A stretch of 64,000 bases of DNA, from contig OX453280.1 of the NCBI GenBank assembly GCA_949710005.1, positions 12,400,105 through 12,464,104 on the forward strand. Direction: 5' to 3'. Positions 11,106 to 43,631 of this stretch are shown here, piece by piece. The position numbers and the translations under genes were made by a program. Under the pieces are notes generated by a model. That model was given only the letters and a program-made list of their open reading frames with translations. It ran no database searches and had not been told where the DNA came from. This DNA comes from Ricordea florida (Eukaryota > Cnidaria > Anthozoa > Corallimorpharia > Ricordeidae). Numbering within the stretch: the first letter of the stretch is position 1; each line of letters starts with the position of its first letter.

Positions 11106-13157
11106 AATATATATATATATTAAAGGTGTCCGTTCGCAGGCCAGGTTACCTGACATTACTTCATATGAATTTCCGCCATTACGAATTCCGTGAATGATGT
11201 TTTGAAAATAATGTGAATTTTGCGGAAACCGATTTTTCTAATCGTGGAAATACTTCCTAGCAAGAAGATCTCCGAAATGCACAAGTAAGAGTGGCGAGAG
11301 ATCGTCGACGAGTAAGTTTGAATGCCGAAAAAATCAGCACACGGGAAGCGGTTCCCTGCTAGCAGAGGCTCTTTTCCTGGTGTTGGAAAAGAGCCTCTGC
11401 TAGCAGGGAAGGGAAGCGGCGACTCAAAACAGAGATTGAGAAACGACGGTTAAGGGACGATAATACAATAAGCGGCATCGCAGCAAAGACAACAACTGCT
11501 CGCTCAAAAAAGGCAAAGGAAACAGCAAGGAAAACGACCAGGAATACAATCAAGTTAGATTGGAAATTGAATTTGTTATCGATAGAAACAAAGACTCGTT
11601 TTAGCTATACAGCATTCAGAATTTAAGGAAAATTATGGTAACAGCATACAGACAGAATCAGAAGACGAACGACAAAACAGATTGCCATATCGTCGTGAAA
11701 AAAGTGCCAGGAAATGGGAAACAGAAACCAACCGCAAAGAAATGAAATATCACAGTCACGTAGTCTTAATACAGCAATGAGAATGCAAGTAGGTATTTTT
11801 CGTACTAAAACGATAGCTATCCATTTTGAAGAAATTCCCAATACAGAGACTGCAGTTGTGATAGCAATTATTTATAATTATGTGATCTGATATCATTGCA
11901 ACAGTGAAAATATATTGTAGATTTGTCTGTTGTAGCAGTCATGTTCAGCATTTTCAACAGAAAAGATACTTAACAATTAGTGACTGGTTCTGCAATATTA
12001 CAAGTGATCAATGCAGCTCTTTGAAAATAAAGCAGATGGTATTTATTACTGGTTTCTGAGTTGTATTTCTCTTTGCTATATATCTTTGCTACATATACGT
12101 ATTAAGTAATTAAAAGGTTTTGTTGGGACTGACAAGTTCCATAGCCTTTTGTAAATGGATTTTTACCTTTGAGTTCCAGGTATCCCTGGGAATTACTCTC
12201 TTAGCCCCCACACTTTCCCCACAAATGAAAAATTCATTTAAGGCCTACTTTGCAAAAATAGGCGTAACATCTTAACCTTTTTCCTCAATGCTGTTTAATT
12301 CATTTTTATGATGCCAAATAAAAAATTTTTAACAACAACTGCAATATACAGTTGACCTTTTACATTGGGAAGACTAAAGTTTGTAATGCCAAAATTTTTG
12401 CAATCTTTCTTATGTATTCATTCCAAGGTTGATGTATATAATAACAAGTCTTTGAAGTTCCCTAAAAGCCCTGTGCTTTCAATCATGATTTTCCACACTA
12501 ACTGTATGGATGATGCATGACTGCTACAGGTCAGGAAATGGTCAGGGAAAAAATTCTTCAAGCAAGGGAAAAGTCAGGGAATTTAATTTCGAGTAAGGGA
12601 AAGTTTAAGTCTTTGAGAGAAATCAGGGAAAAGTGAAATGTAAGAGTTCTAATTTATTTATTGCCAATTCAGCTATGGTTTGGTGTAATTAAGAATGTGA
12701 CATGAAATGTGTTGGAGTGGTAGAATTAAATGACAAGCTGATTTTGGATTGCCTAGAAAATCAATCCTTTTCCATGACTTTGTTACCTTAAGAAACTATC
12801 AATCCATATGCACTGTATGTGACTTTCTGAAAGCATATTAAATAAATGGTTGGAGAGGTTGGTTGTGAGGTGAGGTTGGAGGCCTTTACCAGGACCAATT
12901 TGTGAGTTTTCTTATTTAGTTGGTAAGGGAAATTTCACATGTGTCAGGGAAAAGTAAGGGAATTTCAAGATCCTGTGGCTGTGGCAACCATGACTAGATT
13001 CTAAGCCGAAAAGAAGAAATTTTATTGTTCAGAGATGAGTAACTTTGACCACAACTGATACAAACCCTATTCAGAAGAAAACTGTATTGCTTGTAGTAGT
13101 AGAGGAACAATACCTTTACCCAGATTAGGACATACACCCCCAACCCATAAAAAATAA
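11106..13157 (+). mobile_element. Short Hel-A copy, left part (interrupted by autonomous Hel-A)
   Basis: Starts in the (TA)n tract after the foldback element, carries the AAAGGTGTCCGTTCGCAGG block and a more decayed Rep-helicase N-terminal remnant (about 11,225-11,800, with a local inverted repeat GCTAGCAGAGGCTCTTTTCC at 11,356-11,405). It runs to CCCATAAAAAATAA at 13,157, where the autonomous element enters, and continues at 26,525. It differs from the other copies more than they differ from each other, so it is older. Confidence 0.75.
12525..12990. mobile_element. Insert with GTCAGGGAAAAGTCAGGGAA-type repeats
   Basis: Sister Hel-A copies read straight from ATGACTGCAC to TAGATTCTAAGC, while this copy has about 465 extra bases between. 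The insert has several GTCAGGGAAA motifs near both ends, a pattern common in animal hAT-like non-autonomous elements. Ends and duplication are not exact enough to classify it. Confidence 0.5.
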
Positions 13158-13217
13158 CTAGAAATACGACTCCCGCAAAACCTCGCGAAGCTAGTTTTTG
13201 AAGAAGTCACAACGGTT
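13158..13217 (-). other. Hel-A 3' terminus
   Basis: On the minus strand: CTTCAAAAACTAGCTTCGCG then AGG, T-run, GCGGGAGTCGTATTTCTAG. The final CTAG fits the CTRR end of Helitrons, and the next base is host T. GCTTCGCGAGG here is the complement of the 5' terminal CCTCGCGAAGC. Confidence 0.8.
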
Positions 13218-14855
13218 TTAGCTATCAGCCTAATCCCCATTATTTTATTTGTTATTTCATGTTTGGTACTCAATTAGTGACACCTTGTGCACATTACATG
13301 ATTAGTATACCGCTGAACACAGTGGTTATAAATTTGCCTTCACTTAGCTCTGTTACTGCCACTGAGAGTGCACCAGAGAGAATAGAATTAAAATTATTTA
13401 TTGTCCTTACCTGGAATACAGAGTCGATGAAGTATCACAATAAGATTCACTAACCAGAAATTGAAAATGATTGTAAATCTTTTGCAGGTGATGTCTTGAA
13501 GAATTTATATGAATTCTTGTGTTTACCACAGTGTAAAAACCTGTGTTTTTTTTTATTTTCTTAGTCTCTATTGCTTTGTCTGCTTTGTTGTACATCACTT
13601 TTAAACGCAATAGGTTCTAATTACACCGAGGATGAGTTGAATGCTCCTATTGTTTTTTGTTTATATTCTATTGTTATCACTGCGCATGAGATTCACTGTA
13701 AGAAGAATCTTCTGATTAGGTATTTTGTCTACTGCAGTCATTATTTAATTCATTCCTAGGAAACCAGAATTGAGAACATAATGAATAGTGCATGTACTCT
13801 CTTTAGTTACATTGGTGCCCCCCTGTGGTAGATAGAAAATTCCTCTCTCCCCAAAAGAGATGCCATATCAACAGAAGTGTGAGATCCAATGTCATAACAT
13901 TAAAAAAAAAATTGGAGGGGGGGTGGGGGTGGGAGGAAAGAATTGAATTGTACAAAGACTGAATAAAGGTTTGGTAATAGTGAGTGCCGACTATATAGTA
14001 GGTTGTTGTGCTATTTTTAGAACATATCATAAAAACAGTGTAAGAAAGAGTTATTTAAATGCTCATATGCTGAAAAAGATGGCTGGACTACATATTGCTT
14101 TAAAAAAATTAATGTGAAATCAACATCAAGTAGTCAACAGTATACACCAGAGGAAAGTTTAATTGTGCTGTTACAGAAATAGTCAAAATATCCCTACCCA
14201 ACCAGAGAATAGTATATGATTTTGAATATAAGAAAATTTCAATTCTAAAAACTGCAGAAGACAAATTTAATAGAAGTATGGTTTTTCATAAAAACAGTCA
14301 TTGCAGCTCGAGTTATTAAAGTTGTCATGACAAACTATAATGCCAAAATGTCAATTGCGCAAAACGCAGCTGTAACCAATGATATACAGTAACGATCAGA
14401 AGCACTACTCAGATTTTTGTAACAAGAAATGCTTTATTTTCCAATAAATGAAACTACTATTAACAGTATTATACAAACAGTGCTTGTAAAATTTGCAATG
14501 TGTTCATTGCCAACTCTACACTGGAAATCTCTTCATAATGGAAATATAATGTATTTATTATCTGAAAAATATCAATTTGGTATTTTTTTATAATATCAAT
14601 ATACTTAAGATCAAATTGGCCAATTTCAATGTAGCTCGTAATTCTGCCAACTGACTTAAAAACAAATTGATTTGAAGAGAAGAACTGCTCATTTATAGGA
14701 AGTGAGAGAGTTTACAATATACCTGTTATCCAAATTTGTTGTGATTTTTTTTTTAACACACTGTACTACTTTTAATAGATTCCAACTTACCTGGATGCAT
14801 GATTACATGTAACAGCTGTCTTTACTGCTTGAAAATGAATAAGTTCATTAAAAAA

Positions 14856-17405
14856 TTAAAAGTGTTGGTAAATCCTGGAAGTGTTGTCTGCTAAGTCAAG
14901 TAGTCTTTGTTCTTCTGTCAGTCGTTCTTGCAAACGCTTACACTTACCTATGCCCTGAAGTCTTTGGAATGGCATTGGCTGAATTACAGCATGCTGTAAA
15001 GACCGAACTCTTGATGTTGCAACAAAGGTACATCCAGCTGCTCTTTCTGATTTTCCAATGTCTATGACTACTTTATTTAGTGTTTGTCCTTGTGACTTGT
15101 GAATAGTCATTGCATAGCTTAATCGAAGTGGCAATTGAAGACGAGAAAGTTTCTTGTTGTCATCTTCCCATTCAAACCGTTGAGGTGGTACAGGTATAGA
15201 AAGGGGGTCATCATCTATAAAGGCTGGACCTCTGTAGTGGGGAAAGTGTACAAGTACAGCTATGGGTAAGCATGGTGGTGGTTTATCTGAGTGAAACAGG
15301 AGTTCCTGAACTGTGCCAACTGTCCCATTGCACAGTCCAACTTCTTGCCAAAGGTTAGAAGTGAGCATGACAGTTGCACCTCGAGAAAGGAACACTTCAG
15401 ACTGCAGTCCTCCTGCATTATCAGACTTTGCAGCACTGGCTCCTATACCTGAGTGAACTGCTGATATTCTTGCAATAGGATTACCAAGTCTGCACAGCTT
15501 CTCATAGTTGTACCTTGCAACATTTTCCTTATCGTAGAACAGTCGTACCGCATCTTTGAAATCTTCCATGTTTACATTTTGTGGTGCTCTTTCTTGAAGT
15601 TTGTGCCAGTCTTCTTCTGTTACTATTCCATCTCTCATCCTCAATAGTAGTTCTCTAAATTCCTCTGCTTCAGGGTTATTTCCATTCTGTCGAACATTCT
15701 CATTCAATACAACCACATTTTCAAACAGTGTATAAACTGAATAGCCCTGTTGTGCTAACATAGTAGCTGGTGGTGATGAATAAAGTGGTCTATCTCCTAC
15801 AGGTGGTAACTGTGCAAAGTCACCAAAAAGGATTACTGAGTATCCTCCTAAAGGTGTGTTGAGTTTTCCTGAGGCTTGACGTAGACGCTTGTCAATCCAT
15901 GCCAAAGTTCTCTGTCCAAGCATTGAGAATTCATCTATAATGAGATAATGTTTACCCTGTAATCTGAGTTGTAGACGTTGTAAGGCTGCTCCTTGCAAAT
16001 CTGTTTTGTTTAGAGTGCGTACTGGTAGTTGTAAGGTAGAGTGAAGAGTGCTTCCAGCAATGTTGAAACCTGCAATTCCAGTTGTTCCTGTTAGAATACA
16101 CTGATCTCCCAGAAGATGAGCCAATGCATTAATTAGAAATGACTTTCCTGTTCCAGCAGTTCCTGTGATAATCATGTGTAGAGGTTCTGTAGGTACGTTT
16201 TCATTTAGGCGTCTTTTGTGTTGCTGAACAATGCTGTATGCAATATTTTGTCTGTGGTTCAGTGCTGTTAAATCCACAGGTTGCCTTTCCATTTCTTGTA
16301 TGTTTGCAGCTTCTCTCACTTCATTTCGTTGTTTTGCTATCCACTTCTCTGATTCCCGAAGGAGGTCCGGAGGCATATTTCTTGAGGCAGATGTCCAGTC
16401 AAAATCAGGTGCATCATCATTAGCTGTGCTATTACTGAAGTCTTGGTTAAACCTACAAAGCAGCATCCATTCTTCAACTTCCTCTTGCTGTTGGTGCATC
16501 ATATTCTCATCATCCTCACCATCGTTTTCATCCCCATCATTTTCACTGTTCCCATTGTGCACCATTGCTTGTTCAAGCTCCTGAGCAAATGTTGGTATAC
16601 ACTGCTGTCCAGTCTCAGAATTTAGGAAGTTCTTATAGCATTCAATGAACACTTCATCACTTTCCTCAAGTCCATCCCAGGCAGAGTCTACTGATTGATG
16701 CCATGGCTTGTACTTTACCAGCTGAAATTTACAGTACTTACCATAATTCTTACCAGAAGGATTAGGAGAAAACACTGGAAAGCTTCTGATTATCACCTCC
16801 TGTTTACGTTTTCTTATGTCTCCCTTTGTAATATAAAAATCTGATGCAAACTGGAGTAGATTTAGCCGCATAATTCCAGGAACTTGTTCTCGCCACTGAA
16901 CCCTTGATGCATAATGATCACACAATGATGGATCCAAAGCACTGTCACCGTGGGTTACTTCTTCACCTTGTCCTCCACGTACTCTTTGGCTTCCATCCAG
17001 AGAAATGCAGAGAAAGCTGTAAGTACAACTGTACAAAGGTTTTCCAAGAAGCATATGGGCTGTTTCCTGAGATCCAATGTCACGTTCTCCTGCAACTTGA
17101 ATCATGGCTCGGCGTAAAGCAGATGATGCACTGTCTGTATGGCGTAACTTACTGATGGCAGATTGGAGAATCTCTGTTGCCTGTTGAGATCTTGGCTCAC
17201 CTTTGGTTGCATACTTGGCCATATAGCGAATGCATTGGTCAGTGTCAACAATTGCTTGCAAATCCACATTTGCTCTCCAGTTCTGAAGCATTAAGCGATT
17301 GTGTGAGTTGATGCGGTCATCATTCCTCTTGGTGATAAGTGAAGCTCTTACTCTTGCCTCAGTTATCTGCTGCACTGTCAGTTCATCGTGTTCACCATTA
17401 TCTCC
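14856..17405 (-). CDS. Hel-A Rep-helicase, C-terminal part (Rep tyrosines and PIF1 helicase)
   Basis: Second part of the split Helitron transposase: 849 codons from the LTR insertion site to the stop. The open frame runs on upstream into LTR sequence to an ATG at 17,516; those 37 codons are not original. It begins with the end of the Rep domain, including YMAKYATKG, the paired-tyrosine YxxKYxxK motif that breaks and joins DNA. A linker rich in acid residues follows. The PIF1-like helicase has GTAGTGKS (Walker A), LIIDEFSML (Walker B), ILFGDFAQLPPVGD and AMTIHKSQGQTL, ending with TSRVRS. All helicase motifs look intact and there are no internal stops. Removing the LTR element and one 5-bp duplication would leave this frame in phase with the N-terminal part. 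Confidence 0.92.
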   Translation of the reverse strand, partial: GDNGEHDELTVQQITEARVRASLITKRNDDRINSHNRLMLQNWRANVDLQAIVDTDQCIRYMAKYATKGEPRSQQATEILQSAISKLRHTDSASSALRRAMIQVAGERDIGSQETAHMLLGKPLYSCTYSFLCISLDGSQRVRGGQGEEVTHGDSALDPSLCDHYASRVQWREQVPGIMRLNLLQFASDFYITKGDIRKRKQEVIIRSFPVFSPNPSGKNYGKYCKFQLVKYKPWHQSVDSAWDGLEESDEVFIECYKNFLNSETGQQCIPTFAQELEQAMVHNGNSENDGDENDGEDDENMMHQQQEEVEEWMLLCRFNQDFSNSTANDDAPDFDWTSASRNMPPDLLRESEKWIAKQRNEVREAANIQEMERQPVDLTALNHRQNIAYSIVQQHKRRLNENVPTEPLHMIITGTAGTGKSFLINALAHLLGDQCILTGTTGIAGFNIAGSTLHSTLQLPVRTLNKTDLQGAALQRLQLRLQGKHYLIIDEFSMLGQRTLAWIDKRLRQASGKLNTPLGGYSVILFGDFAQLPPVGDRPLYSSPPATMLAQQGYSVYTLFENVVVLNENVRQNGNNPEAEEFRELLLRMRDGIVTEEDWHKLQERAPQNVNMEDFKDAVRLFYDKENVARYNYEKLCRLGNPIARISAVHSGIGASAAKSDNAGGLQSEVFLSRGATVMLTSNLWQEVGLCNGTVGTVQELLFHSDKPPPCLPIAVLVHFPHYRGPAFIDDDPLSIPVPPQRFEWEDDNKKLSRLQLPLRLSYAMTIHKSQGQTLNKVVIDIGKSERAAGCTFVATSRVRSLQHAVIQPMPFQRLQGIGKCKRLQERLTEEQRLLDLADNTSRIYQHF

Positions 17406-17557
17406 TGTGGTGTTTCGGGCCCAAGTAGAATAAAAGATTCCGGCACTTAAACAACGATAACAATTTTTATTTCTCTCCTCCGAGCACATGCTCCCGTTCT
17501 GCATCCCATAATGCACTAGGGATCATGTGACTCACACGTCACAATAGAAACACTACA
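17406..17557 (-). repeat. 3' LTR
   Basis: 152 bp, TG...CA ends on the plus strand, identical to the LTR at 21,841-21,992. Followed on the plus strand by the polypurine tract complement TCTCCCCCT. Confidence 0.95.
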
Positions 17558-17686
17558 TCTCCCCCTAAGTTATTACAAATGTTAGTACTAGAGAAAAACT
17601 AAATGAAAGGCATTACGAACCTAATTGAAGTCTTTAAAACAAACATACAGTCTCTCTCTTAATGTCTCTTGCACAATCTAAAACAA

Positions 17687-20600
17687 CTAAGTGCATACGT
17701 AGTCTTTCAAATAGGTGGGTGGTTGTCTAGAGCGCGCAGGCCGCAAAACAACTGAATCACCTGGCAAAGGGTTGGGTGGAGTCTCTTGCACCTCTGCTGC
17801 TGGCTGGCTTGCGACTGTCATTGGATGCGCTTGTTTCACTTGGTCTGGTTCTTGGGGTTGTTGTGTTGGCTGTACTTGGTCTTCCTTTCCAGTGGTTTCA
17901 GGTGCAACAAATTTCTTCATGTGGGCTATGTTTCGCATTTTATTGTTTCCATTTGTATCTTCCAGTATGACAGCATTTCCATCCTTGTGAATAACTTTGT
18001 ATGGCTCAGGTTCATAATTGGGTGAAAGTTTGTTCTCTCGAGCCTGTTTCAGTAGGACTTGATCACCCTCTTCAATGTCGCTGAATTTGGCAGCGCGTGT
18101 TCTGTCTGCATACTCCTTCTGTCTAAGTTTAGCACGAGCATCCCTGTCTTTTAAGAGCAGTTGCCATTGTGCTTCAGTGGCTCGATCCTTGGGGATTTGA
18201 ACTTTTGGAAGTTTGTCACGCAGCTTCCTCCCCATCAGTAGTTCTGCAGGTGATATCCCGGTAACAGTGTGAGGGGTAACTCTGTACTGGAAGAGAAAGT
18301 CTGCAAGTGCTTTTCGCCAATCTTTACCCTCTAGACGTGCGATTCTCACGATTTTCAGTAAGGTCTCATTGCAACGCTCTACTTCGCCATTGCTTTGGGG
18401 CCAAAAGGGCACGCCCTTTTTGTGCTCGATTGCTAGATATTCTAGGAATCCCTCAAATTCCTTGGATGCAAATGGAGGTCCGTTGTCACTACGGACAGTC
18501 TCTGGTAGACCATGTGTTCTAAAAATAGCCTCCATGGACTTGATTACATGTTTTGCATCTGTTGTCTTGAGAAGGACAGCTTCGATCCAGCGAGAATAGT
18601 AGTCTACAACTACCAGGAGGTGATCTCCACCTGTAATCTCTAGAAGATCAACCGAGATTTCTTGCCATGGGGAGTCTGGTAGTCTGGTTGATCTCACTGG
18701 CTCTGGTTTGGATCGGGGTCCGACAAGCTGGCAGGGGTGACATGTTCGTACTACTTGCTCTACTTGCTTGTCCATTCGCGGCCACCATACTTTTTCTCGT
18801 AACCTGGCTTTAGTTCGGACCATACCTTGGTGTCCTTCGTGAGCCAGCATTATGGTGCGCTTTTGAAGGTTCTGTGGGATGATGATGCGGCTTCCTCTCA
18901 TCACCACCTGCCCTATCACCCACAGTTCATCTTTAACTGCTTTGTAAGTTGTGCCTTGTAACTGGCTCCAATCATCTGTCATTACAGCCTGACGTAGCTT
19001 CTTTAGTGTTGGGTCTTTTTCAGAAGCGATTTCAACTTCCTTTGGTACCAACGCAGCTGGTACAGCCTCACTTACTACGCTGTACGCAAACTCTTCTGTA
19101 GCTTGAGTTTCGTGATCATGGGTAGAACCAACTGGTAGGCGGCTGAGGACATCTGCAGCATTGTCCTTGCCCCGGATATGTGTCAGCTTGTATTGGAACT
19201 GCTGTAAATAGAGAAGCCATCTTTCTATTCTTGCAGATGGGGGCTTTGACTTTGCTCCGAGTACGATGAGAAGAGGCTTGTGATCAGTGCAGATTTCAAA
19301 GCTAATGCCATAGAGGTACAAGTAGAATTTTTCACAAGCCCACCTTACAGCTAGGGCTTCTCTTTCAAATTGGGAGTACCTCATTTCAACCTTACTCAGC
19401 TTCCTGCTGGCATAATATATTGGCCTGTAGCTTCCATCTTCTTGCTCCTGTTCCAGAATCGCCCCAACTCCCACGGGTGAAGCGTCAGTTGTCAGACGAG
19501 TTTCTGCGCCCTGTCTGAAATATGCCATCACTGGTGCATGAGTCAACCGGTCTTTTATCTCTTGGAATGACTTTGCTTCCTTTACGCCCCACTTCCACTT
19601 TCCGTGTTTCGTAGTGAGGTCCCACAATGGACTCGATATTGTTGCAAAGTTGGGAATGAACTTTGAACAGAACTGCACGGAGCCAAGAAAACTTCTTACT
19701 TCTGATGGGTTTTGGGGTGCTGGTGCTTCAACAATAGCTTTCACACGTTCGCTAGACACTTTCAGCCCTTCCCCAGAGAGCACGTCACCCATGTAGATCA
19801 TGCTGCCGACACCAATTTCACATTTTTCATAGTTAAGTGTAAGCCCACTTTCGTTAAGCTTGCGCATGACCCTCTGTAAGTTTTTATCATGCTCTTCATC
19901 ATTTGTGCCAACAACTCGCAGGTCATCATGGAGGTTGTATGCCCCTGGGCAGTCTTGGATGATCTGCCACACAATTTGCTGGAATTTTTCCGTGGCCATG
20001 TTTACACCGAAAAGCAGGCGCTTGTATCTGTAAAGGCCATTAGGGGCAGCAAAGGTTGTAATGTCCCTTGAGTCTGGGTGTAACTCAATTTGATGGAAAG
20101 CCATATTTAAATCTAATTTAGAGAAAACTTTGGCATTTGAGACTTCTTGGAGTGTTTCTTCTACGGTGGGGACTGGGTGTTTCTCCCGCACAATGGCCTG
20201 GTTCGCTTGTCTCATATCCAGACAGATTCTAATGTCCCCGTTAGGTTTCTCGACCACTACCAAGGGGTTGACCCAGCTGGTAGGTCCCTCTACTTTCTCG
20301 ATAACATCAAGCTTCAGTAACTCCTCCAATTTCTCTGTGACTTTCTTTCGTCTACAAAAAGGAATTCTGCGTGGGGGTTGAGCAACTGGCTGCACCTTTT
20401 CGTCAATGTGTAACTTGAGTTGGTATCCTTTGAGCTTCCCCAGGCCTTGGAAGACTTTGGGAAACTTTGCCCTTAGGGAGGCCTTTCTATCTGCTTGTTT
20501 TGGATTGTTACTAGCACCATCAGATTCAACATCACAGCTGTTAACAGGGATACCAACCCTTAAAACACCAAGCAATTCAGATGCATCGCGGCCTAATAGC

Positions 20601-21766
20601 GTGGCAGCTTTACTATGCGTAACATAAAACTCAACGCTCAGGGACTTTTGGGTTTGCGGTACACGTACATCAAGATTACATTTTCCTTTGATTTGGAGTG
20701 GCTCTTCAGATGCATAAGCAAAAACTCTTTTGTTGCACTCCAACAATTTAACATTACCCCCCGTTACAAGGTTAAATACTTCCTCGGACATCAAATTACA
20801 ACTAGCACCAGAGTCTATAATGACATTAATAGTCTTATCTGCAATCTCCAGCTTTAGAGTGTTCCTGTCATCTGTCTCCCCAGTGTAAAACACGTAGAAA
20901 TCATCCTTTCTTGCAGAGTTCCCAGCAGTCTCGTCCTCAGTTACTTGGCGTACATCACGTTGGAACTGTGAACTTCCTCCACGACTTTGTTTTCTGCCAG
21001 AGTTTCCACGACCGCGACTCGAACTCCGACAAGAATCTCGCCCTTTACTCTGTTTGGAGTGACAGCACACTTCGAAATGACCCACGTTGCCACATTTCCC
21101 GCATTTGTGGTCACGTGAACGAAAGCATTCCCTCGCGAAGTGTCCCGCTTTATCGCACCGCCAACATTTTCCCCCTTTTTTGACGCTTGGAGATATGTTA
21201 TTTACTTGGCCATTACGGTTAAGAACGAGTGCTTCTTTGTCATGGTATTGGCTAACGATTTCAATTAGTTTGCTCAATGTTAATGTTTCTTCGCGATACA
21301 ACTTGGCCTTGAGGTTTTTGTCTTGAATGAAAGAAATCGCACGATCTCTCACCTGGTTATCCCTTTCACCTTCGTATTCACAATGTTTGGCTAATTTCTG
21401 CAAGCGTGTGATGAAATTGTTAATGGTTTCTCCAGCGGTTGGTTGAGCTGCGAGAAACGCCTGTCTTGCCATCGGCGCGTTTTTTCTTGGTTTGAAATGT
21501 TCGGATAGGCTGTCCATAGCTTTCTTGTAATCCTTCGCTTCGCCTCGTTTGTCGGCAGGAATTGAGTTATTAAAAACGTCTCTAACTTGGGGCCCTGCGA
21601 GGTGAAGTAGAAGCGCCCTCTTCTGTGTTGGGTCGCTGATTCCCGAGGCAGTCACGTACAATTCGAATTCGTCTTTCCAAGTTAACCATCGTTGTGCGAG
21701 TGTAGCTGGCTCGCCCACAGCGTCGAACGCTTGTAAACCTGGCAGTCCGCTCAAGGATACGGCCAT
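17687..21766 (-). CDS. Ty3/Gypsy Gag-Pol polyprotein, 1,359 codons
   Basis: A single open frame with all expected parts in order. The Gag-like start is followed near residue 200 by two CCHC knuckles (CWRCDKAGHFAREC and CGKCGNVGHFEVCC) that bind RNA. Next comes an aspartic protease with DSGAS near residue 317. The reverse transcriptase has CLDMRQAN and the catalytic LHDD box in place of the usual YxDD, then RNase H has TTDASPVGVG. The integrase has an HHCC zinc finger (HEGHQG...CHPCQ) and D,D,E residues (SVDLLE, RSDNGPPF, NGEVERCN). No chromodomain is seen. Gag and Pol are in one frame, so no frameshift is needed. No break is visible, so it may be active. The clade within Ty3/Gypsy was not determined. 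Confidence 0.95.
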   Translation of the reverse strand: MAVSLSGLPGLQAFDAVGEPATLAQRWLTWKDEFELYVTASGISDPTQKRALLLHLAGPQVRDVFNNSIPADKRGEAKDYKKAMDSLSEHFKPRKNAPMARQAFLAAQPTAGETINNFITRLQKLAKHCEYEGERDNQVRDRAISFIQDKNLKAKLYREETLTLSKLIEIVSQYHDKEALVLNRNGQVNNISPSVKKGGKCWRCDKAGHFARECFRSRDHKCGKCGNVGHFEVCCHSKQSKGRDSCRSSSRGRGNSGRKQSRGGSSQFQRDVRQVTEDETAGNSARKDDFYVFYTGETDDRNTLKLEIADKTINVIIDSGASCNLMSEEVFNLVTGGNVKLLECNKRVFAYASEEPLQIKGKCNLDVRVPQTQKSLSVEFYVTHSKAATLLGRDASELLGVLRVGIPVNSCDVESDGASNNPKQADRKASLRAKFPKVFQGLGKLKGYQLKLHIDEKVQPVAQPPRRIPFCRRKKVTEKLEELLKLDVIEKVEGPTSWVNPLVVVEKPNGDIRICLDMRQANQAIVREKHPVPTVEETLQEVSNAKVFSKLDLNMAFHQIELHPDSRDITTFAAPNGLYRYKRLLFGVNMATEKFQQIVWQIIQDCPGAYNLHDDLRVVGTNDEEHDKNLQRVMRKLNESGLTLNYEKCEIGVGSMIYMGDVLSGEGLKVSSERVKAIVEAPAPQNPSEVRSFLGSVQFCSKFIPNFATISSPLWDLTTKHGKWKWGVKEAKSFQEIKDRLTHAPVMAYFRQGAETRLTTDASPVGVGAILEQEQEDGSYRPIYYASRKLSKVEMRYSQFEREALAVRWACEKFYLYLYGISFEICTDHKPLLIVLGAKSKPPSARIERWLLYLQQFQYKLTHIRGKDNAADVLSRLPVGSTHDHETQATEEFAYSVVSEAVPAALVPKEVEIASEKDPTLKKLRQAVMTDDWSQLQGTTYKAVKDELWVIGQVVMRGSRIIIPQNLQKRTIMLAHEGHQGMVRTKARLREKVWWPRMDKQVEQVVRTCHPCQLVGPRSKPEPVRSTRLPDSPWQEISVDLLEITGGDHLLVVVDYYSRWIEAVLLKTTDAKHVIKSMEAIFRTHGLPETVRSDNGPPFASKEFEGFLEYLAIEHKKGVPFWPQSNGEVERCNETLLKIVRIARLEGKDWRKALADFLFQYRVTPHTVTGISPAELLMGRKLRDKLPKVQIPKDRATEAQWQLLLKDRDARAKLRQKEYADRTRAAKFSDIEEGDQVLLKQARENKLSPNYEPEPYKVIHKDGNAVILEDTNGNNKMRNIAHMKKFVAPETTGKEDQVQPTQQPQEPDQVKQAHPMTVASQPAAEVQETPPNPLPGDSVVLRPARSRQPPTYLKDYVCT

Positions 21767-21821
21767 CTGTGCGAGTTTTCCACCGTTTAAACTCGTTAAC
21801 CACTTTTTATCCGCTTTTCGT

Positions 21822-21838
21822 CTTTATCCTCGTCGCCA
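21822..21838 (-). other. tRNA primer-binding site
   Basis: TGGCGACGAGGAT... on the minus strand, two bases inside the 5' LTR. The TGG start fits pairing with a tRNA CCA end. The tRNA was not identified. Confidence 0.65.
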
Positions 21839-21840
21839 AA

Positions 21841-21992
21841 TGTGGTGTTTCGGGCCCAAGTAGAATAAAAGATTCCGGCACTTAAACAACGATAACAATT
21901 TTTATTTCTCTCCTCCGAGCACATGCTCCCGTTCTGCATCCCATAATGCACTAGGGATCATGTGACTCACACGTCACAATAGAAACACTACA
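21841..21992 (-). repeat. 5' LTR
   Basis: 152 bp, identical to 17,406-17,557. Its outer end abuts the TCTCC duplication at 21,993-21,997. Confidence 0.95.
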
Positions 21993-21997
21993 TCTCC

Positions 21998-24900
21998 CTT
22001 AACAATTAGCTCAAAGTCAATGCTTGTCTGTTCAGTGCAATCCTTTGGGTAATTGAATCGGCATTGTGGTTGTTGTCCATGTTTGCTACGTAAACAATAT
22101 GCTGTACTGCACCTGGTGTGACGTTCCACTGAATTAACCAGAGAGTGGTAGTCATCATTTTCATTTCCAGTCTCCTGAATGGGTACAGCAGAAGGATGTG
22201 GGTTTGGTACTGCCCAATTTCCATCTGGAAGAGCCTCGTTCATGGTGGTGAGAAGCCAGTCTGCATATTGAATAACTCTTGCTTTGGCTTCAATTCCTGC
22301 TTCTATCGCTGGTGTAAAGTCATTTACCATGTCTTGATAGTTGGATTCTTCATGTTGCCTGTCCAATATTTGCTTAAGCTTCCACCCTTGAGCAGCTTTC
22401 TTTACAAGTTCACAGAGTCCTGGGTCATTCTTGAGCTTTGCACAACCATGTGCATGAATACTTCCTCGAGCTTGCCATTCATAACGAAGCCATTTCCATT
22501 CAGCATACAAAACTTGATCCAACCAGTGTTTATTGAATTCTTCAAGTCTTGCTACGAAGTGGGAGTCTGTGATATGTTGATGGTTTATTACAGCTTTTAT
22601 CCGTATAGCAGGTGTTGCATTGTTTGGTTCCTCCAGCAGTCTATGAAGATCAGGCCAGTAATTGTCAGCTGCACTAAATGTGAAGAAAAATGTTGGTGCC
22701 CCCTTCTGTTCAATAAGAGCTTTAAGTTCCAAGTAGCGTTGATACCAGTATTGTCTTGTTCCTTGAATCTTTGCCACATAACGCTGAACTCTGTTCATGA
22801 GTTGCTGTGCAGACATCTGTCGAACCATTTCTTGTAGTTCTTCTGTGGTAAGGTTAGCATCTTGAGGGTTCTGAGTGAGGTAAACCCTAGCTTGTGACAG
22901 CAACTGATGTCTCTGCTTCATGTTCAGTGCCCAGTAGGGAAACCTTGGATGGGATGCAAACCTCCATACAAAGTGCCCTGTTGAGAAATGTTCTGCATAC
23001 CTGATAAAGTGTTTAAAACCCTCTGTTAATGTTACCTCCCTTAATCTTCTCTTGTTTGTGGGGTCTCCTCTTCCATGTGGAAACAGTGTGGGAAAGGCCA
23101 TTGTAGCCAGTCCTTCTGTCTGAAATTCATTGATGGGATCTCCTTCATTGGATGGCCAGTCCAGTGGGTCTTCACCATTAATAAAGGCACGAATAGCGTC
23201 TTGTTCCTGTTGTTGAACCTGTTGAAAAGGAAGGTAAGAACTGCTTTCCTGTTCACTACTATTTGCTTCATTCTGGTAAGGTACCTGTTCACATATTTCT
23301 TGTATCTGCTGTTCTTCGTCTGTCTCTTGGACATGAACTGTAGGCAAATTTGTTGGAACTCCATCACGTGGAAGGCACTCAATAGCTTCATGGTTGATTT
23401 CAATGTCTGAGTAGTAGGGATTGTTGTCCTTTAGCCATGCCAGTGCTTGCATCACCTTGTGTCTTCGAACTCTGCAGTCCCTGCTGCTGTTGTCTGCACC
23501 ATGTCGCCTTATCACAAGGAAGGGGAGTTCTTCTACATTGAGTGGCAGTCTTGTGATGAATCCTTGAATGTCTTGAGGAAGGTTCAACACATGTCCTTTG
23601 TAGCCATGCTGTCCTCCATGCTTACGATAAATACACATTATTGGGCAAGCTCTAGCGATAAGCATCTCCTCTACATCTGTAAGGCTCTGTAGTTCATCTG
23701 GTACTGTTCCTGGATCCATGTCATTCTCTGCTGAAAACAGTTTTGTAGTTTCTTTATCCCTCTTACATCTTAGGCACTGGTATATCTGAAGAGTAAGTCC
23801 TTGCACAGTTGGCCATGTTTCTTTACATGTTACACACTGTCTGTGTTCCAAGCTGTTGATGTTGTTGTGGAAAGCTGCCATGCTACTTTGAACCCATTGC
23901 TGCTGGTGCAGTCGCTGTTCCGAATTCATCCATCCATGTGTAAGATATTCCTCTCTAGTCTGTTCCTCGTGTTGTCTGTTTAATTGTACTTCCTGCCTAC
24001 GAGCAGCGCTGCATTGTCGCGACGTCTCGAGCCTCGAAGATCTTTGCTCGTCGGTTTCCATCTCTAAAGCACGATTGGTGTTTAATCTAAGATTATGTAA
24101 TCTACTGTTACGTTCACTCTGTGTTTCTACTTGTAATGTCATTTCGCTATAAGTACGAAGTGACTGTAATCTTTCAAGTCGTACATGGTCTGTTTCTGTT
24201 CCCCTTGTCCTGGCAGTATTTTGACGTAAAATCGTTAATCTGTTTTGCCGTTCGTCTTCTGATTCTGCCTGAATTCTAGTAGCAGTATTTGCACGTACAA
24301 TCCTTAATCTGTTATGTCGTTCCTCCTCTGATTCTGTCTGTATTCTGTTAGCAGTATTTTCGCGTAAAATCCTTAATCTGTATTGCCGTTCCTCCTCTGA
24401 TTCTGTCTGTATTCTGTTAGCAGTATTTTCGCGTAAAATTCTTAATCTGTTTTCCCGTTCCTCCTCTGATTCTGTCTGTAATCTGTTAGCAGTATTTTCG
24501 CGTAAAATCCTTAACCTGTTCTGGCGTTCGTCTTCCGATTCTGTTTGTAGTCTGTTAGAAATATTTCCCCGCAATCTCTCCAATCGTTGAAATCGTTCGT
24601 ATTCAGTTTCTGTCCTAAGTCGTTCTGCTGAATTTTGTCTCAGTATTTGTAGTCGCTGTTGTCGCTGTTCGTTAGTTTCGTTATGCAATCGTTCTGTCAC
24701 GTTTTGTCTAGCTAAAGCAAGTCTTCGTTGTCTATCAATAACACATTCAGTTTCAAACATACCTTGGTTGTATTGCCTGTGGTAATCCAGTCTCCTGCTC
24801 CTTTCTTCCGCTGATTCCTGCTGTCTCCTTTGCCTTCTTTGAGCAAGCAGTTGTTGTCTTTGCTCCGATGTCTGTTGTTGTCTTCGCTGCCGTGTCCTCT

Positions 24901-25192
24901 CTCTCTCTGCTTCGAGTCGCGCTTGTCGTTGTGCTGATGTTTCGGCACTCAAACGCGCTTGGCGACGATCTCTCGCTGCTTGGTTTATTCTCTGTCGCCG
25001 TTCCTCTTGTTGAGATGTACTTGCAGGACGAGTGAAATCGGTTTCAGCAAAATTTTGCATAATTTTCAAGAGAGTAATCAGGTACACTCCGGTCCTCAAT
25101 AAGTGAATATTGATATACGCCATAACGAGGCACGTAACCATTATATATAACCTCTGGTATGAAACCGGTTCTGACCGGTTCAAGCCGGTCAA
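21998..25192 (-). CDS. Hel-A Rep-helicase, N-terminal part (coiled repeats and HUH Rep)
   Basis: First part of the split transposase, about 1,065 codons to the LTR insertion; the open frame then runs into LTR sequence. The ATG at 25,060 (MQNFAETDFTRP) is the more likely start because homology with the short copies begins there; the upstream ATG at 25,192 adds 44 residues not seen elsewhere. Residues to about 400 are Arg/Glu-rich repeats (RILRENTANRLQTESEEER), likely coiled coil. A CxxC pair region follows (CVTCKETWPTV, CLRCKRD), then the Helitron-like N domain (ATMAFPTLFPHGRGDP, FVWRFASHPRFPYWALNM, FFFTFSAADNYWPDLH) and RGSIHAHG, the HUH histidine pair of a Rep nuclease. The tyrosine motif lies in the other part. 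Confidence 0.92.
24110..24700. repeat. 69-bp tandem coding repeats in Hel-A transposase
   Basis: A run of imperfect 69-bp units (23 residues, NRLRILRENTANRxQTESEEERx). Three central units are nearly identical in DNA, while outer units diverge, which points to recent unit duplication. Confidence 0.85.
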
Positions 25193-25434
25193 AAATGCGT
25201 CTTGTTGCTAGGTAACCAACAATATCAGTTGCTGTGCGCAAGCGCGATAATCATGTTGCCAGGTTACCAGTAAACAGAGACACGTGACCGCGAACGGACA
25301 CCTTTAAAATATAGATATATATATATATATAAATATAAAGTGTAAAAGTTGATTAATCGTAAAACAGTGCTCAATACGTGAACGTAGAGCGAAGTAGTTG
25401 TTGCGGGAGAAAAAACACAAACAAACTACAGGTT

Positions 25435-25479
25435 TATCCCTACAAGCCTGTTTCGTGGTTGCCCACTCATCAGGGGATA
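25435..25479 (-). ncRNA. Hammerhead ribozyme motif (copy 2)
   Basis: On the minus strand: stem I TATCCC/GGGATA (six pairs), core CTGATGA, stem II GTGG-GCAA-CCAC, GAAA, stem III ACA-GGCT-TGT, cleavage predicted after the A at 25,441. Identical to copy 3 over the whole motif. Confidence 0.88.
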
Positions 25480-25553
25480 TGGTGGGAATGTCCTTTACCA
25501 TCGCTTATATACAAAGTAGTTAAATTTACATAGAAAATAGAGATCGTTAAGTT

Positions 25554-25820
25554 TCAGGTATTGCGTAAGAGGGTTTTGTTTCTGTGGCGGCAAGAAGACA
25601 CAAGCTCATTACGTTTGTTTAGCGTGGATAGTTCGGGTCGGCAGATGATTAGGAATTTTTCTTTGAGGCAGAGGTTACATCTTTTGCTTGAGCTGTTATA
25701 TGGCGAGTGCGAAGACAGGATCCGCCAGGAAATAAAGTGTTCAATGTTGTTGTCTTTAAGGGTCCATATGTGTTTGCTGAGCTCGGTGGAGTTTCTGTGT
25801 TTAGCGTGGCGGAAAGATTG
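25554..25820 (-). pseudogene. GIY-YIG fragment, left arm of Penelope-like pair
   Basis: Encodes only the later part of the GIY-YIG domain from RHAKHRNSTELSKH through SKRCNLCLKEKFLI to the stop. The VIY and YIG motifs are missing, so no nuclease activity is expected. Nearly identical in sequence to the C-terminus at 5,270-5,542. Confidence 0.85.
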
Positions 25821-26238
25821 CCGACAAAAGAACAATTGCCCACTCAACGGAAACTACCTACAACCATCGGTAATCTACCAAGCCACCGTTACGCGTAAAG
25901 ACAACAACACGTGCCAAACCTACATCGGACTTACGGAAAACGACTTCAAAACAAGATACAGAAACCACACCGCATCTTTCCGCCACGCTAAACACAGAAA
26001 CTCCACCGAGCTCAGCAAACACATATGGACCCTTAAAGACAACAACATTGAACACTTTATTTCCTGGCGGATCCTGTCTTCGCACTCGCCATATAACAGC
26101 TCAAGCAAAAGATGTAACCTCTGCCTCAAAGAAAAATTCCTAATCATCTGCCGACCCGAACTATCCACGCTAAACAAACGTAATGAGCTTGTGTCTTCTT
26201 GCCGCCACAGAAACAAAACCCTCTTACGCAATACCTGA
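25821..26238 (+). pseudogene. GIY-YIG fragment, right arm of Penelope-like pair
   Basis: Carries the Cys knuckle end (NCPLNGNYLQ), VIYQATV, TYIGLTENDFKTRYRNH and the C-terminus to the stop. An open frame that runs on upstream to 25,561 is only the antisense of the left arm. The RT region is absent. It differs from the 5,012-5,542 copy at few positions. Confidence 0.85.
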
Positions 26239-26311
26239 CACTTAACGATCTCTATTATTATGTAAATTTAAGTACTTTGTATATAAGCGATGGTAAAGGA
26301 CATTCCCACCA

Positions 26312-26356
26312 TATCCCCTGATGAGTGGGCAACCACGAAACAGGCTTGTAGGGATA
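26312..26356 (+). ncRNA. Hammerhead ribozyme motif (copy 3)
   Basis: Stem I TATCCC (26,312-26,317) with GGGATA (26,351-26,356), CTGATGA (26,318-26,324), stem II to 26,336, GAAA (26,337-26,340), stem III to 26,349, cleavage predicted after 26,350. All core bases of the hammerhead are present. Confidence 0.88.
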
Positions 26357-26394
26357 AACCTGTAGTTTGTTTGTGTTTTTTCTCCCCCAACAAC

Positions 26395-26524
26395 TATATA
26401 TAAATATACATATATAAAAACTCTCGGCTCGATTTACTCGGGCTTGCGAGACACGAGGTGTGACCGGAACCGACACGATTAGTAACCTCGCTACGCTCGG
26501 CCTTCGGCCTCGCTTCGCGAGGAA
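26395..26524 (-). other. Hel-A 5' terminus of the autonomous copy
   Basis: On the minus strand: TTCCTCGCGAAGCGAGG, a second hairpin GCCGAAGGCC, then ACTAATCGTGTCGGTTCCGG, GGGCTTGCGAG complement, TCGAGCCGAGAG, then (TA)n. The same 130 bases start the full-length short copies at 34,798 and 39,466. Confidence 0.85.
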
Positions 26525-26748
26525 CAATAACAATAATATCAATAACAGCAATAATAATAATAATAATAATAATAATGGTAATAATACACTAATCATGATA
26601 ATAATTACAAGAACTGAGAAAGTAAAAAAGTGATAATGATATAACAATATGTAAATACATAAATTAGGGCTCTATCCCTCATGAGAAAAACCATCATGAG
26701 TTCTTTAAAAACTAGCTTCGCGAGGTTTTGCGGGAGTCGTATTTCCAG
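26525..26748 (+). mobile_element. Short Hel-A copy, right part
   Basis: Continues the copy broken at 13,157: (AAT)n tract as in sister copies, a large internal deletion, then the 3' terminus GCTTCGCGAGGTTTTGCGGG...TTTCCAG, with C in place of T in the last CTAG. Confidence 0.75.
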
Positions 26749-33128: not shown

Positions 33129-34797
33129 CTAGAAATACGACTCTCGCAAAAACCTCGCGAAGCTAGTTTTTGAATAAGTCACAATACTGTTATATTTTAT
33201 TTTATTTTATATTTTATTTTTTATATCAGCGTAATCCCCATTAATTAATTTGTTATGCTGTGTTTGGTACACAATTAGTGACACCTGGTGCAAATTACAT
33301 GACCGGTATACCGCTCAGCACAGGGCTTAAAATTGACCTTCATTTAGCTCTTTCACTGCCACTGAGAGGGAATAGAAGCAAAATTATTTGTTTTCTTTAC
33401 AGGGAATACAGAGTCAATGAAGTATCACAAATTGAAAATTATTGTAAATCCTTTGAAGGTGAAATCTTGAAGAGTTGATATGAATGCTTGTGTTTACCAC
33501 AGTGCAAAAACCTGGTTTCTTTTTGGAGTTGTATTTTCTTAGTCTCTACTGCTTTGTCTTCTTTGTTGTACATCACTTTTAAACACAATATGCTCTTACA
33601 CCGAGGATGAGTTGAATGCTCCAATTATTTTTTGTTTATGTTTTTTTCTAATAATTGCATGAGATTCATTGTAAGAAGAATCTTCTGATTAGATATTTTA
33701 TTGTCTACTGCAGTCATTATTTCATTCCTAGGTAACCACAAATGAGAGCATTATGAATAGTGCATGTTTCAATTTGTGTACTCTCTTCAGTTGCAATGGT
33801 ACCCCTAGTGGTAGATAGAAAAATTCCTCTTCCCTCAAAAGAGATGCTATGTCAACAGAAGTGTGAGATACAATGTCATTACATAAATGGGGGTAAAACA
33901 GTTGGATTCTACAAAAAACTTTGAATAAAGGTTTGGTAATAATGAGTGCCAACTGTATCGTATGTGGTTGTGCTATTTTTAGGTCATATCATAAAAACAA
34001 TACATGTAAGAAAGAGTTATTGAAATCTCAACATGTTGAAAAAGATTGCTGCACTATGTACTCCTGTAAGAATATAATGTGAAATCAACATCAATCAGTC
34101 ACAAGTATATACCACATGAAAGTTTAATTGTGCTGTTACAGAAACATGCAAAATATCCATACCCAACCAGAGAATAGTACATTATTTTGAATATATGAAA
34201 ATTTCTATTATAAAAACTGCAGAAGAAAGATTTAATATAAGGATGGTATTTCATCGAAAAAGTCAAGGCAGCCAGAGGTATTGAACTTGTAACCAATGAC
34301 ATATAGTAACGAGAAGAACTATCATTATATTATTATCATTATTATTATTACTATTATTATTATTACTGGTATTGATATTATTATTATTATTATTATTGTT
34401 ATATTTTTTATGTTAAACATTATATATTTTTATGGGGTGGGATGCATGTGCTAATCTTGGTAAAGGTATTGTTACTCTACTACTACAAGCAATACAAAAA
34501 TCTTCTTAATAGGCTTTCCATCAGAGGTGGTAGTAATCAAAACAGCTCCAAACAATACCATTTCTTCTTTAATGCTTAGAATCTAGTGCAGTCATTTGTC
34601 TATAAAGTTTGTGTGGAAAATCATTATTGAAAGCATACTTTAGGGCATTTAGGAAACTTGAAACACTTGTTACTACATACAGCACACTTGCAATGAATAT
34701 ATGAGAAAGATTATAAACATTTTGGCATTACAAAATTAATTTTCTTCCTTATAAAGTTTTTTCAATGTAAAAGGTTAACTGCATGTTGTGGTTGTTA

Positions 34798-34907
34798 TTC
34801 CTCGCGAAGCGAGGCCGAAGGCCGAGCGTAGCGAGGTTACTAATCGTGTCGGTTCCGGTCAGACCACGTGGCTCGCAAGCCCGAGTAAATCGAGCCGAGA
34901 GTTTTTA

Positions 34908-34949
<42 letters not shown>

Positions 34950-37900: not shown

Positions 37901-39155
37901 AATACCAGTAATAATAATAATAGTAATGATAATAATAATGATAATAATATAATGATAGTTCATCTCGTTACTATATGTCATTGGTTACAAGTTCAATACC
38001 TCTGGCTGCCATGACTTTTTCGATGAAATACCATCCTTATATTAAATCTTTCTTCTGCAGTTTTTATAATAGAAATTTTCATATATTCAAAATAATATAC
38101 TATTCTCTGGTTGGGTATGGATATTTTGCATGTTTCGGTAACAGCACAATTAAACTTTCATGTGGTATATACTTGTGACTTATTATTCATGTTGATTTCA
38201 CATTATTTTCTTACAGGAGTACGTAGTGCAGCAATCTTTTTCAACATATTAAGATTTCAATAACTTTTTCTTACATGTATTGTTTTTATGATATGACCTA
38301 AAAATAGCACAACCACATACTATACAGTCGGCACTCATTATTACCAAACCTTTATTCAAAGTTTTTGTAGAATCCAACTGTTTTACCCCCATTTTTTATG
38401 TAATGACATTGTATCTCACACTTCTGTTGATATGGCATCTCTTTTGAGGAAAGAGGAATTTTTCTATCTACCACTAGGGGTACCATTGCAACTGAAGAGA
38501 GTACACAAATTGAAACATGCACTATTCATAATGCTCTCAATTGCGGTTACCTAGGAATGAAATAATGACTGCAGTAGACAATAAAATATCTAATCAGAAG
38601 ATTCTTCTTACAATGAATCTCATGCAATTATTAGAAAAAAACATAAACAAAAAATAATTGGAGCATTCAACTCATCCTCGGTGTAAGAACATATTGTGTT
38701 TAAAAGTGACTTACAACAAAGAAGGAAAACCAGTAGAGACTAAGAAAATACAACTCAAAAAAAAAAAAAGTTTTTACACCATGGTAAACACAAGCATTCA
38801 TATCAACTCTTCAAGATTTCACCCTCAAAATATTTACAATAATTTTCAATTTGTGTTAACTGAATATTATTGTGATACTTCATTGACTCTGTATTCCCTG
38901 TAAAGAAAACAAATAATTTTACTTCTATTCCCTCTCGTGCAATCTCAGTGGCAGTGAAAGAGCTAAATGAAGGTCAATTTTTAAGCCCTGTGCTGAGCGG
39001 TATTTGCACCAGGTGTCACTAACTGTGTACCAAACACAGCATAACAAATTAAATAATGGGGATTACGCTGATATAAAAAATAAAATATAAAATAAAGTAT
39101 TGTGACTTATTCAAAAACTAGCTTCGCGAGGTTTTTGCGAGAGTCGTATTTCTAG
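34798..39155 (+). mobile_element. Short Hel-A copy nested in the minus-strand copy
   Basis: Starts TTCCTCGCGAAGCGAGG and ends TTTCTAG. A foldback element of about 1.4 kb sits in its (TA)n tract. It carries the Rep-helicase N-terminal remnant (about 36,470-36,930). The remnant ends in GAATGTAAGT, a good splice-donor string; a splice-acceptor-like TTTTCTTACAG lies at about 38,206-38,216. Confidence 0.9.
34945..36343. mobile_element. Foldback element of about 1.4 kb
   Basis: Left end AACTCAGATACTACGTGCGC, with CGCGCTGATTGG and CTATGGGTTT. The right end is a long palindrome (36,180-36,327) with arms TATGGGTTTACCGGCGTGAT and complement around TCGCCTTCGGCTCG. No recognisable transposase in any frame. 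Remnants of the same family lie at 49,735-49,925, and the layout resembles 10,464-11,105. Confidence 0.6.
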
Positions 39156-39401
39156 TTAAAGATTGATATTTGACATCATAAAAATGAAGTAAACAGCAGA
39201 AAGTAACAAGGTTAACATGTTATGTCTAACTTTGCAAATTTAGGCTTGAATTAGCATTTCATTTGTGGGAAAAGGGCAAGGGTTCTACATAGCAATATTA
39301 TCAGGGGGGTTATTGAACTCCAAGGTGAAACTTACCCATTGTGAAAAGGCCATGAAACCTGTTGTCTCTATGCAATATTATTGAAACCTTTCAATCAGAG
39401 A

Positions 39402-39434
<33 letters not shown>

Positions 39435-39465
39435 GCAAAGAGAAATACTACTCAGAAGTAAGTAA

Positions 39466-40492: not shown

Positions 40493-40542
<50 letters not shown>

Positions 40543-43420: not shown

Positions 43421-43631
43421 TTAATTTCGTGGCCACTCCCAGCTAGCAGAATAAATATATGTTATTGACGAAGCACGCGGTCAAGATATATGCGTTATTG
43501 AACAAGCGTGAGGTCAAGTTCGCTGCATACTGGCCGAGTTCATTTTTGCGTTTTTATTGACCGAGACGTCAAAACGAACGAGACCATTATCCAGCCATCT
43601 TGACCGAACAGCTTGGTCACTAAAGTATTTA
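43421..43631. repeat. Host repeat, left part (interrupted by Hel-A)
   Basis: Continues at 46,765. Contains CCATTATCCAGCCATCTTGA and GAACAGCTTGGTCA, and resembles 61,540-61,860, which is uninterrupted. It is therefore a dispersed repeat older than the Hel-A copy inside it. Confidence 0.7.

Follow-up and report, generated by a model that had tools for sequence, protein, structure and literature searches.

Among the Helitron2 elements described by Bao and Jurka (2013, PMC3627910), the non-autonomous CRe-1, CRe-2 and CRe-3 share their ends with autonomous elements, at about 90% identity over the 5′ 200 bp and about 70% over the 3′ 50 bp. Here, a 64,000-nt stretch of Ricordea florida DNA (assembly GCA_949710005.1, contig OX453280.1, positions 12,400,105 to 12,464,104 of the forward strand), called the window in the following, was analysed for one long Helitron, element A, and eight short copies with similar ends, a to h. 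It is likely that element A is a Helitron2-type element recently broken by a retroelement and that the short copies belong to an old non-autonomous lineage, most likely spread by the transposase of the autonomous family.

The Helitron2 group as described in PMC3627910 resembles this locus in its RepHel protein, asymmetric inverted repeats of 8-15 bp, possibly a 5′ hairpin, a 3′ repeat 20-30 bp from the end, a T at the 5′ end, a T-rich target and non-autonomous elements with autonomous-type ends. The target given there is TTTT, whereas it is TNRT here; moreover, the 3′ end is here CTAG(T), and STPR repeats and a DUF6570 domain precede Rep. FoHeli1 and FoHeli2 of Fusarium oxysporum, as described in PMC5148889, also start with TC, have an inverted repeat, insert after TNAT, and occur as nested copies and with repeated 5′ termini; their 5′ hairpin with a GAA loop has a putative counterpart here. 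Their terminal sequence is ATTTT and the description includes few tandem cases, whereas here the end may fit the target and 79 close junctions were found. The account of Helentrons and HINE/DINE-1 elements by Thomas et al. (2014, PMC4067079) shares with this locus the RGS signature at Rep motif 2, the greater abundance of non-autonomous copies, microsatellites and the counting of Ts as part of the element, and it includes families with near-identical subterminal repeats but less than 70% identity otherwise. In contrast to Helentrons, no endonuclease or RPA match was found here, and HINEs are given as 84-99.9% identical to their partner, whereas the present short lineage is more diverged.

Helraiser and other Helitron1 elements, as described in PMC4778049 and PMC5876387, are similar in their TC...CTAG ends, a two-tyrosine Rep with helicase and possibly a 3′ hairpin, and circles with joined ends would be a further likeness. 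However, they insert between A and T and their circles join CTAG directly to TC, whereas 0 of the 79 junctions found here lack a T. Helitrons in tandem are not new: both concatemers and successive insertions have been invoked to explain them (PMC2267711, PMC5876387). The adjacent Helitrons of maize and bat described in PMC2267711 are, as here, neighbours in the same orientation, interpreted as tandem repeats in bat and as successive insertions in maize; the differences are the 79 close junctions in one genome and the T at both edges of their spacers. Measured against the descriptions in PMC3627910 and PMC5148889, structure and behaviour of the elements appear to fall within Helitron2. No paper treating both STPR and Helitron was found in the literature searched.

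Element A and the insertions that broke it

Element A and the short copies a-h all lie within the first 47 kb of the window. The features of element A are as follows.

13158-26523, reverse strand: full-length Helitron2-type element A (5′ end 26523, 3′ end 13158), recognised by terminal motifs and domains; two later insertions
26508-26523, reverse strand: 5′ terminus TCCTCGCGAAGCGAGG, GAA flanked by a 6-bp palindromic stem; 5′ partner of the asymmetric inverted repeat
25290-25305, reverse strand: conserved block AAAGGTGTCCGTTCGC on the 5′ side, final part of the stretch that is near-identical between element A and the short copies
25311-26394, no strand assigned: insertion into the (TA)n of the 5′ leader, made up of partial copies, in inverted arrangement, of a repeat that has a 234-aa frame
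21993-25207, reverse strand: RepHel frame, part 1, with STPR repeats, DUF6570 and Helitron_like_N (motif RGSIHAHG)
17406-21992, reverse strand: long terminal repeat (LTR) retroelement that interrupts the RepHel gene; its two 152-bp LTRs (17406-17557 and 21841-21992) are identical, and the target duplication is GGAGA
14856-17405, reverse strand: RepHel frame, part 2, with YMAKYATK and a PIF1-like helicase (open frame 14856-17522)
13181-13190, reverse strand: CTTCGCGAGG, reverse complement of CCTCGCGAAG; 3′ subterminal partner of the asymmetric inverted repeat

The 3′ terminus of the element is GTATTTCTAG at 13158. The asymmetric terminal inverted repeat CCTCGCGAAG/CTTCGCGAGG is 10 bp long and its 3′ copy lies 23 nt from the 3′ end, both values within the Helitron2 range (8-15 bp and 20-30 bp). 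Rep and PIF1 helicase belong to one frame, Helitron_like_N and PIF1 being found in its two halves, and relatives have uninterrupted frames around Rep. The YMAKYATK of part 2 is what we take to be the two-tyrosine motif, and the names HUH and two-tyrosine are used for the Rep motifs of element A on the same assumption. The target is T-rich, without a long target duplication. Part 2 of the RepHel frame gave no match to an endonuclease or OTU domain in Pfam searches. By this structure and behaviour, element A is of Helitron2 type and not canonical; its RGS signature was compared by eye with the description in PMC4067079. A Helentron in the strict sense was rejected since no endonuclease domain follows the helicase (Pfam, E 0.001, both halves), and a canonical Helitron1 was rejected since the target is not A-T, the base preceding the 5′ end being T in 42/42 non-junction flanks. 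At the 5′ end the sequence contains the palindrome with the 6-bp stem, but the predicted fold pairs this palindrome with a 22-bp unit; the stem at the Helitron 3′ end includes G-T pairs.

Between the RepHel halves, reverse transcriptase, RNase H and integrase were matched in Pfam, and the retroelement is presumably of Ty3/gypsy type. It separates the HUH part of Rep from the two-tyrosine part; the mechanical open frame of part 1 extends into the LTR as far as 21974. The Helitron is in the same frame on both flanks of the retroelement, which together with the identical LTRs and the GGAGA flanks indicates a recent insertion. Because the gene is split and a repeat was inserted into the 5′ leader, element A is not autonomous today. 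It had been called autonomous in an earlier interpretation made from the window letters alone (the sequence-only reading), where the break in this copy went unnoticed.

The 234-aa frame of the leader repeat gave no Pfam match; the repeat looks Penelope-like, which is our assumption. It occurs at 5123-5815, beside short copy c, and at 25290-26396, thus beside or in the (TA)n of two Helitron copies, and within element A it makes a perfect foldback of 283 bp. The 23-aa STPR repeats at the N-terminus of RepHel are encoded by 69-bp tandem repeats at 24167-24614; matches to this region were also found in three loci of other families (L112, L113, L115), upstream of DUF6570.

The short copies and their descent

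Short copies were identified by self-comparison of the window and by end motifs.

1-583, forward strand: short copy b, of which only the 3′ end lies in the window
586-3615, forward strand: short copy a, both ends, carries a 232-bp insert (3145-3376)
5703-10463, forward strand: short copy c, without 5′ terminus, interrupted at 7166-9177
11101-13157 (left) and 26524-26748 (right), forward strand: short copy d, diverged subfamily, element A inserted within it
33130-43419, reverse strand: short copy e in three pieces (43419-42462, 39466-39158, 34798-33130), f and g nested inside
34799-39155, forward strand: short copy f, inserted in e and with an interruption of its own at 34950-36340
39467-42461, forward strand: short copy g, inserted in e
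43632-46763, reverse strand: short copy h, from self-comparison and end motifs

The presence of a Rep-helicase element and eight short copies, as proposed in the sequence-only reading, was borne out by the element ends, the Rep and PIF1 coding and the self-comparison. The same holds for the block AAAGGTGTCCGTTCGCAGG, which is exact in seven short copies and has 2 mismatches in element A, with 0 matches in 100 shuffles. The further parts said to be common to all copies are common to most of them. The 5′ terminal ~130 bp were found in five of the eight (a, e, f, g, h) and are missing from c and d, while b starts outside the window; the 3′ 1.2 kb are present in six (a, c, e, f, g and, with an insert, h), whereas b has 583 bp and d the last 62 bp only. 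The N-terminal coding remnant was found in seven copies and is indeed decayed, the reading frame being broken in all seven.

Identity to element A amounts to 92-97% at the 5′ end (first 101-129 bp) and 78-85% at the 3′ end (90% over 62 bp in d). For the N-terminal stretch it is 66-73% in a, c and e-h and 68-84% in d, which aligns in pieces; other alignments gave 74-77% or a group mean of 72%. A profile built from seven short copies (b left out) matched element A, in order, at the 5′ end, the N-terminal stretch (386-940), weakly in the 3′-untranslated part (6403-6564) and at the 3′ end (6561-7730). The middle of the short copies contains ~1.07 kb (profile 705-1777) to which element A offers only a weak match (159 positions, E 9e-6). 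A single clean deletion spanning element positions 940 to 6309 was considered and dropped since the right-hand matches are weak and the stretch is ~50-58% identical. The possibility that short copies carry an intact N-terminal DNA-binding protein as a possible repressor was likewise rejected, as the remnants are broken and only short open stretches are left; the longest open stretch is 61-104 aa in 27 short rows vs 126-186 aa in 12 autonomous rows. Without coding capacity and with the terminal 60 bp as in the autonomous element, the short copies are HINE-like.

In the tree of the N-terminal stretch, 13 autonomous rows from 12 distinct places (the window element was entered twice, and its second copy, L021, was dropped from later figures) were separated from 27 short rows by a branch with 100/100 support; 29 of the 61 loci with a match were left out because their match was too short. 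The short side is deeper and includes a sub-clade of d, L058 and L096. The tree of the 3′ end separates 8 autonomous from 9 short rows with moderate support (90/86), copy d being on a long and unsure branch. The stop context GAATAACAACAGA, with at most one substitution, was found in 23 of the 27 short rows (by a stricter pattern, the exact TAA in 20) and was absent from d, L058, L096 and L102, of which three make up the deep sub-clade; 12/12 autonomous rows read CAA at this position. The shared stop indicates that most of the lineage was amplified after the stop had arisen. By these trees, the short copies form a single old lineage that is the sister group of all autonomous copies sampled; its diversity exceeds that of the autonomous family as sampled. 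Copies g and h are 98.3% alike; such close similarity indicates that amplification continued late.

The 232-bp insert of copy a (3145-3376) has inverted ends GAGAGGTTTAGATCCACG and resembles a miniature inverted-repeat transposable element. The 2-kb insert interrupting copy c contains a 57-bp tandem repeat (8162-8617). The host DNA flanking h (43452-43631 and 46764-46943) is a dispersed repeat with dozens of relatives, most at 74-82% identity, many of which span the empty site.

The near-identical 5′ cassette

Both groups are near-identical over the stretch that begins at the 5′ end, includes the (TA)n and closes with the block, and similarity falls directly after the block (five autonomous and five short rows). 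Over the 84 nt from TTACTAATCG, here called the cassette, the mean difference is 3.5% between and 3.0% within groups (16 autonomous and 22 short rows; 6 of 44 rows of unclear type, window copy f among them, were dropped). The corresponding values are 27.8% and 5.7% for the N-terminal stretch (12 and 27 rows) and 16.0% and 6.4% for the 3′ 1.2 kb (8 and 8 rows; copy d was excluded because of the deletion of its 3′ part, where any alignment is due to chance). In the last 60 nt the two groups are 94.0% alike, a difference of 6%, against 96.1 and 95.9% within groups (d left out).

Constraint certainly contributes to the identity of the cassette. Whether exchange between the lineages, by gene conversion or chimeric transposition, has acted in addition is evenly balanced. 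Within the autonomous group the cassette varies like the N-terminal stretch (3.1 vs 2.8%; 3′ end 5.0%), although between groups it differs by 3.5% vs 28% and 16% elsewhere; furthermore, 2 of 21 80-nt haplotypes are common to both groups, and a 22-bp unit is variably present or absent in both, as exchange would allow. Within the short group, however, the cassette varies less than the other parts (2.9 vs 8.7 and 7.7%), which is what constraint predicts, and it is only ~84 bp long. Its variants mostly sort by group (KST 0.16, reached in 0/1000 permutations; N-terminal stretch 0.79, 0/1000; 3′ end 0.60, 1/1000).

Target site and head-to-tail junctions

In 42 distinct non-junction 5′ flanks the last base was T in 42/42 and the last four bases were TNRT in 40/42 (TAAT 20, TTAT 10), against a TNRT background of 4.2% of window positions and 13.6% of positions ending in T. 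The base following the 3′ end was T in 23/23. Empty sites for f in e and g in e are provided by copy f, the closest relative of copy e (96.4%), and both filled sites have one T more than the paralogous empty site. Hence, either a T is duplicated or the element carries it; in the latter case its terminus is TAGT and matches TNRT.

Genome-wide, a 3′ end meeting a 5′ end at a distance of up to 10 bp was found 79 times head-to-tail and never when the pattern was read backwards, while well under one is expected by chance (hand estimate from TNRT density). Searches for close head-to-head and tail-to-tail joints in the same genome gave 0 each, counts that unstable or badly assembled inverted pairs could lower. 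T is the first and the last base of each of the 79 spacers; 36 consist of one T only, and no joint is without a spacer. Spacers of at least 4 bp end in TNRT in 34 of 37 cases, an argument for separate insertions. Joints with a single T are compatible both with separate insertion and with concatemers.

We tentatively propose that the element carries one terminal T and ends in TAGT, an instance of its own target TNRT, and that copies thereby stack head-to-tail without a rolling-circle concatemer. The 3′ edge of each copy would act as a directional landing site, while the target left of its 5′ edge would stay intact. If true, this self-target rule accounts for the 79:0:0 polarity and for the T in every joint. 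The idea that a Helitron end reproduces the target motif was not met in a limited literature search.

It is doubtful that the head-to-tail pairs are concatemers from one rolling-circle event instead of separate insertions. CTAG-T-TCC, found at 36 of 79 junctions, would be the circle joint if the element carries one T, and the polarity is strict, with only head-to-tail joints. Three testable single-T pairs, a small sample, are also 97.7-98.7% alike (75-133 bp), compared with a median of 95.2% (88.7-99.4%, n 28) between upstream copies at different loci; for this comparison 8 of the 36 single-T junctions were fetched, of which 3 had comparable downstream 3′ ends, one had 114 nt that were not compared and four had none. 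By contrast, copies b and a of the window, joined head-to-tail via TT, are 88.9% alike and of different subfamilies, another junction pair differs at a subfamily base, and the TNRT endings of the longer spacers point away from a single event. The polar junctions offer a means to test whether tandem Helitron arrays, often read as rolling-circle concatemers, can instead arise by repeated insertion. A head-to-tail array at C4:20465448-20487403 has joints about every 3,093 bp and repeated TTAT spacers, possibly due to later tandem duplication.

The autonomous family and the probable mobilisation of the short copies by it

The genome search covered an assembly of 538 Mb in 48 contigs. A 534-aa Rep query gave at least 84 matches, most at 90-99% identity and many with long stop-free frames (81 of 573 candidates scored), and open frames without stops reach 2,406 aa among them. 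Ten autonomous relatives were sampled, of which four have the same 5′ terminal motif, eight the block and seven the same 3′ motif; in the remaining ones the motif is outside the fetched stretch. With a 149-aa query from the DUF6570 region, at least 93 rows, some of them pieces of one locus, were obtained at 84-100% protein identity and the rest at 44-52%, with none in between among the rows listed (hand count). Five loci of more distant autonomous families, represented by 2.6 kb upstream of all five and one 3.2-kb 3′-side stretch for two, gave no nucleotide match to the short copies, their ends not being located. A better-matching autonomous family was therefore rejected among these five; element A itself has one 77-bp match at 70% to two of them. 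As far as this comparison and the identity gap reach, no other autonomous family fits the short copies better than the present one, so that the outcome named in the sequence-only reading as refuting it did not appear in the part checked.

Given that both ends are kept nearly the same, the short copies most likely use the transposase of the autonomous family, and cross-mobilisation by this family is, from the sequences compared, the most likely reading. The short lineage, now counting ~2,900 block-bearing copies, would have branched off from the forebear of the autonomous family sampled here, with loss of most of the gene. The family protein would nick at the common 5′ end, unwind, stop at the 3′ end and join the cut strand to TNRT sites, with the short copies handled likewise; the finished copy would present TAGT as the next target in the same orientation. 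Several points weigh against this combined account. The 3′ ends differ by 16% overall (6% in the last 60 nt), so that recognition by the same protein is assumed. The end folds do not stand out (z -1.20 at the 5′ end and, at two 3′ ends, -1.23 and -1.36), and the extra T was seen at two sites only, both in host copy e. In addition, an autonomous source nearer to the short lineage may survive as a relic, since the comparison covers 12 distinct autonomous N-termini, the match counts are lower bounds, and the relatives with the greatest divergence, at 82-87% identity, lie outside it.

That an extinct or unsampled sister autonomous family made and moved the short copies, the present family having like ends by descent only, is improbable. 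It would agree with the sister position of the short lineage in both trees and with the lack, among the families listed, of an autonomous family between 84% and 52% identity. Late amplification of the short copies, with g and h as the example, and a 5′ cassette hardly diverged from that of the living family argue against it. Recent deletion from element A or its living family can hardly be maintained: ends and N-terminal remnant are common to both in the same order, but 0/27 short rows (N-terminus) and 0/9 (3′ end) fall among the autonomous rows, most short copies inherited a stop, and ~1 kb of them is barely matched in element A.

Of the origin proposed in the sequence-only reading, descent from a relative of element A that lost most of its gene, with ends in common, is supported. 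Its view that a deletion origin is directly readable is not supported, the short copies being a separate sister lineage, mostly with a shared stop; in the separate N-terminal and 3′ trees, none of the short copies is nested among autonomous copies, and they derive neither from element A nor from its sampled relatives. Under cross-mobilisation, an autonomous and a parasitic Helitron2 coexist here that can be distinguished by ends, bodies and copy numbers. The contrast suggests that the parasite must keep the 5′ side up to the block (~180 bp) and ~60 bp at the 3′ side, the rest being dispensable.

At C14:20358020-20486657, five Helitron_like_N matches with 2307-aa open frames mark a large repeat containing a RepHel gene; the first four are ~28 kb apart and the fifth lies 44 kb further.

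Copy numbers and clustering

Genome-wide, the 16-bp block AAAGGTGTCCGTTCGC occurs 2978 times, and 0 times when read backwards. The count of each form gave 2886 blocks of the short type, which continue with AGG, and 57 exact blocks of the autonomous type (longer pattern as in element A). As 57 is fewer than the ~90 rows of the DUF6570 query, the ratio of short to autonomous copies is put at some tens to one. On contig C1, 43 of the first 100 blocks are followed by another within 8 kb vs 5 expected at random, and the close pairs comprise 31 on the same strand and 12 on opposite strands. A short-type 5′ cassette is contained in 3 of 10 stretches fetched near autonomous-family 3′ ends (L056, L058, L070), which suggests that the clustering involves long elements too.

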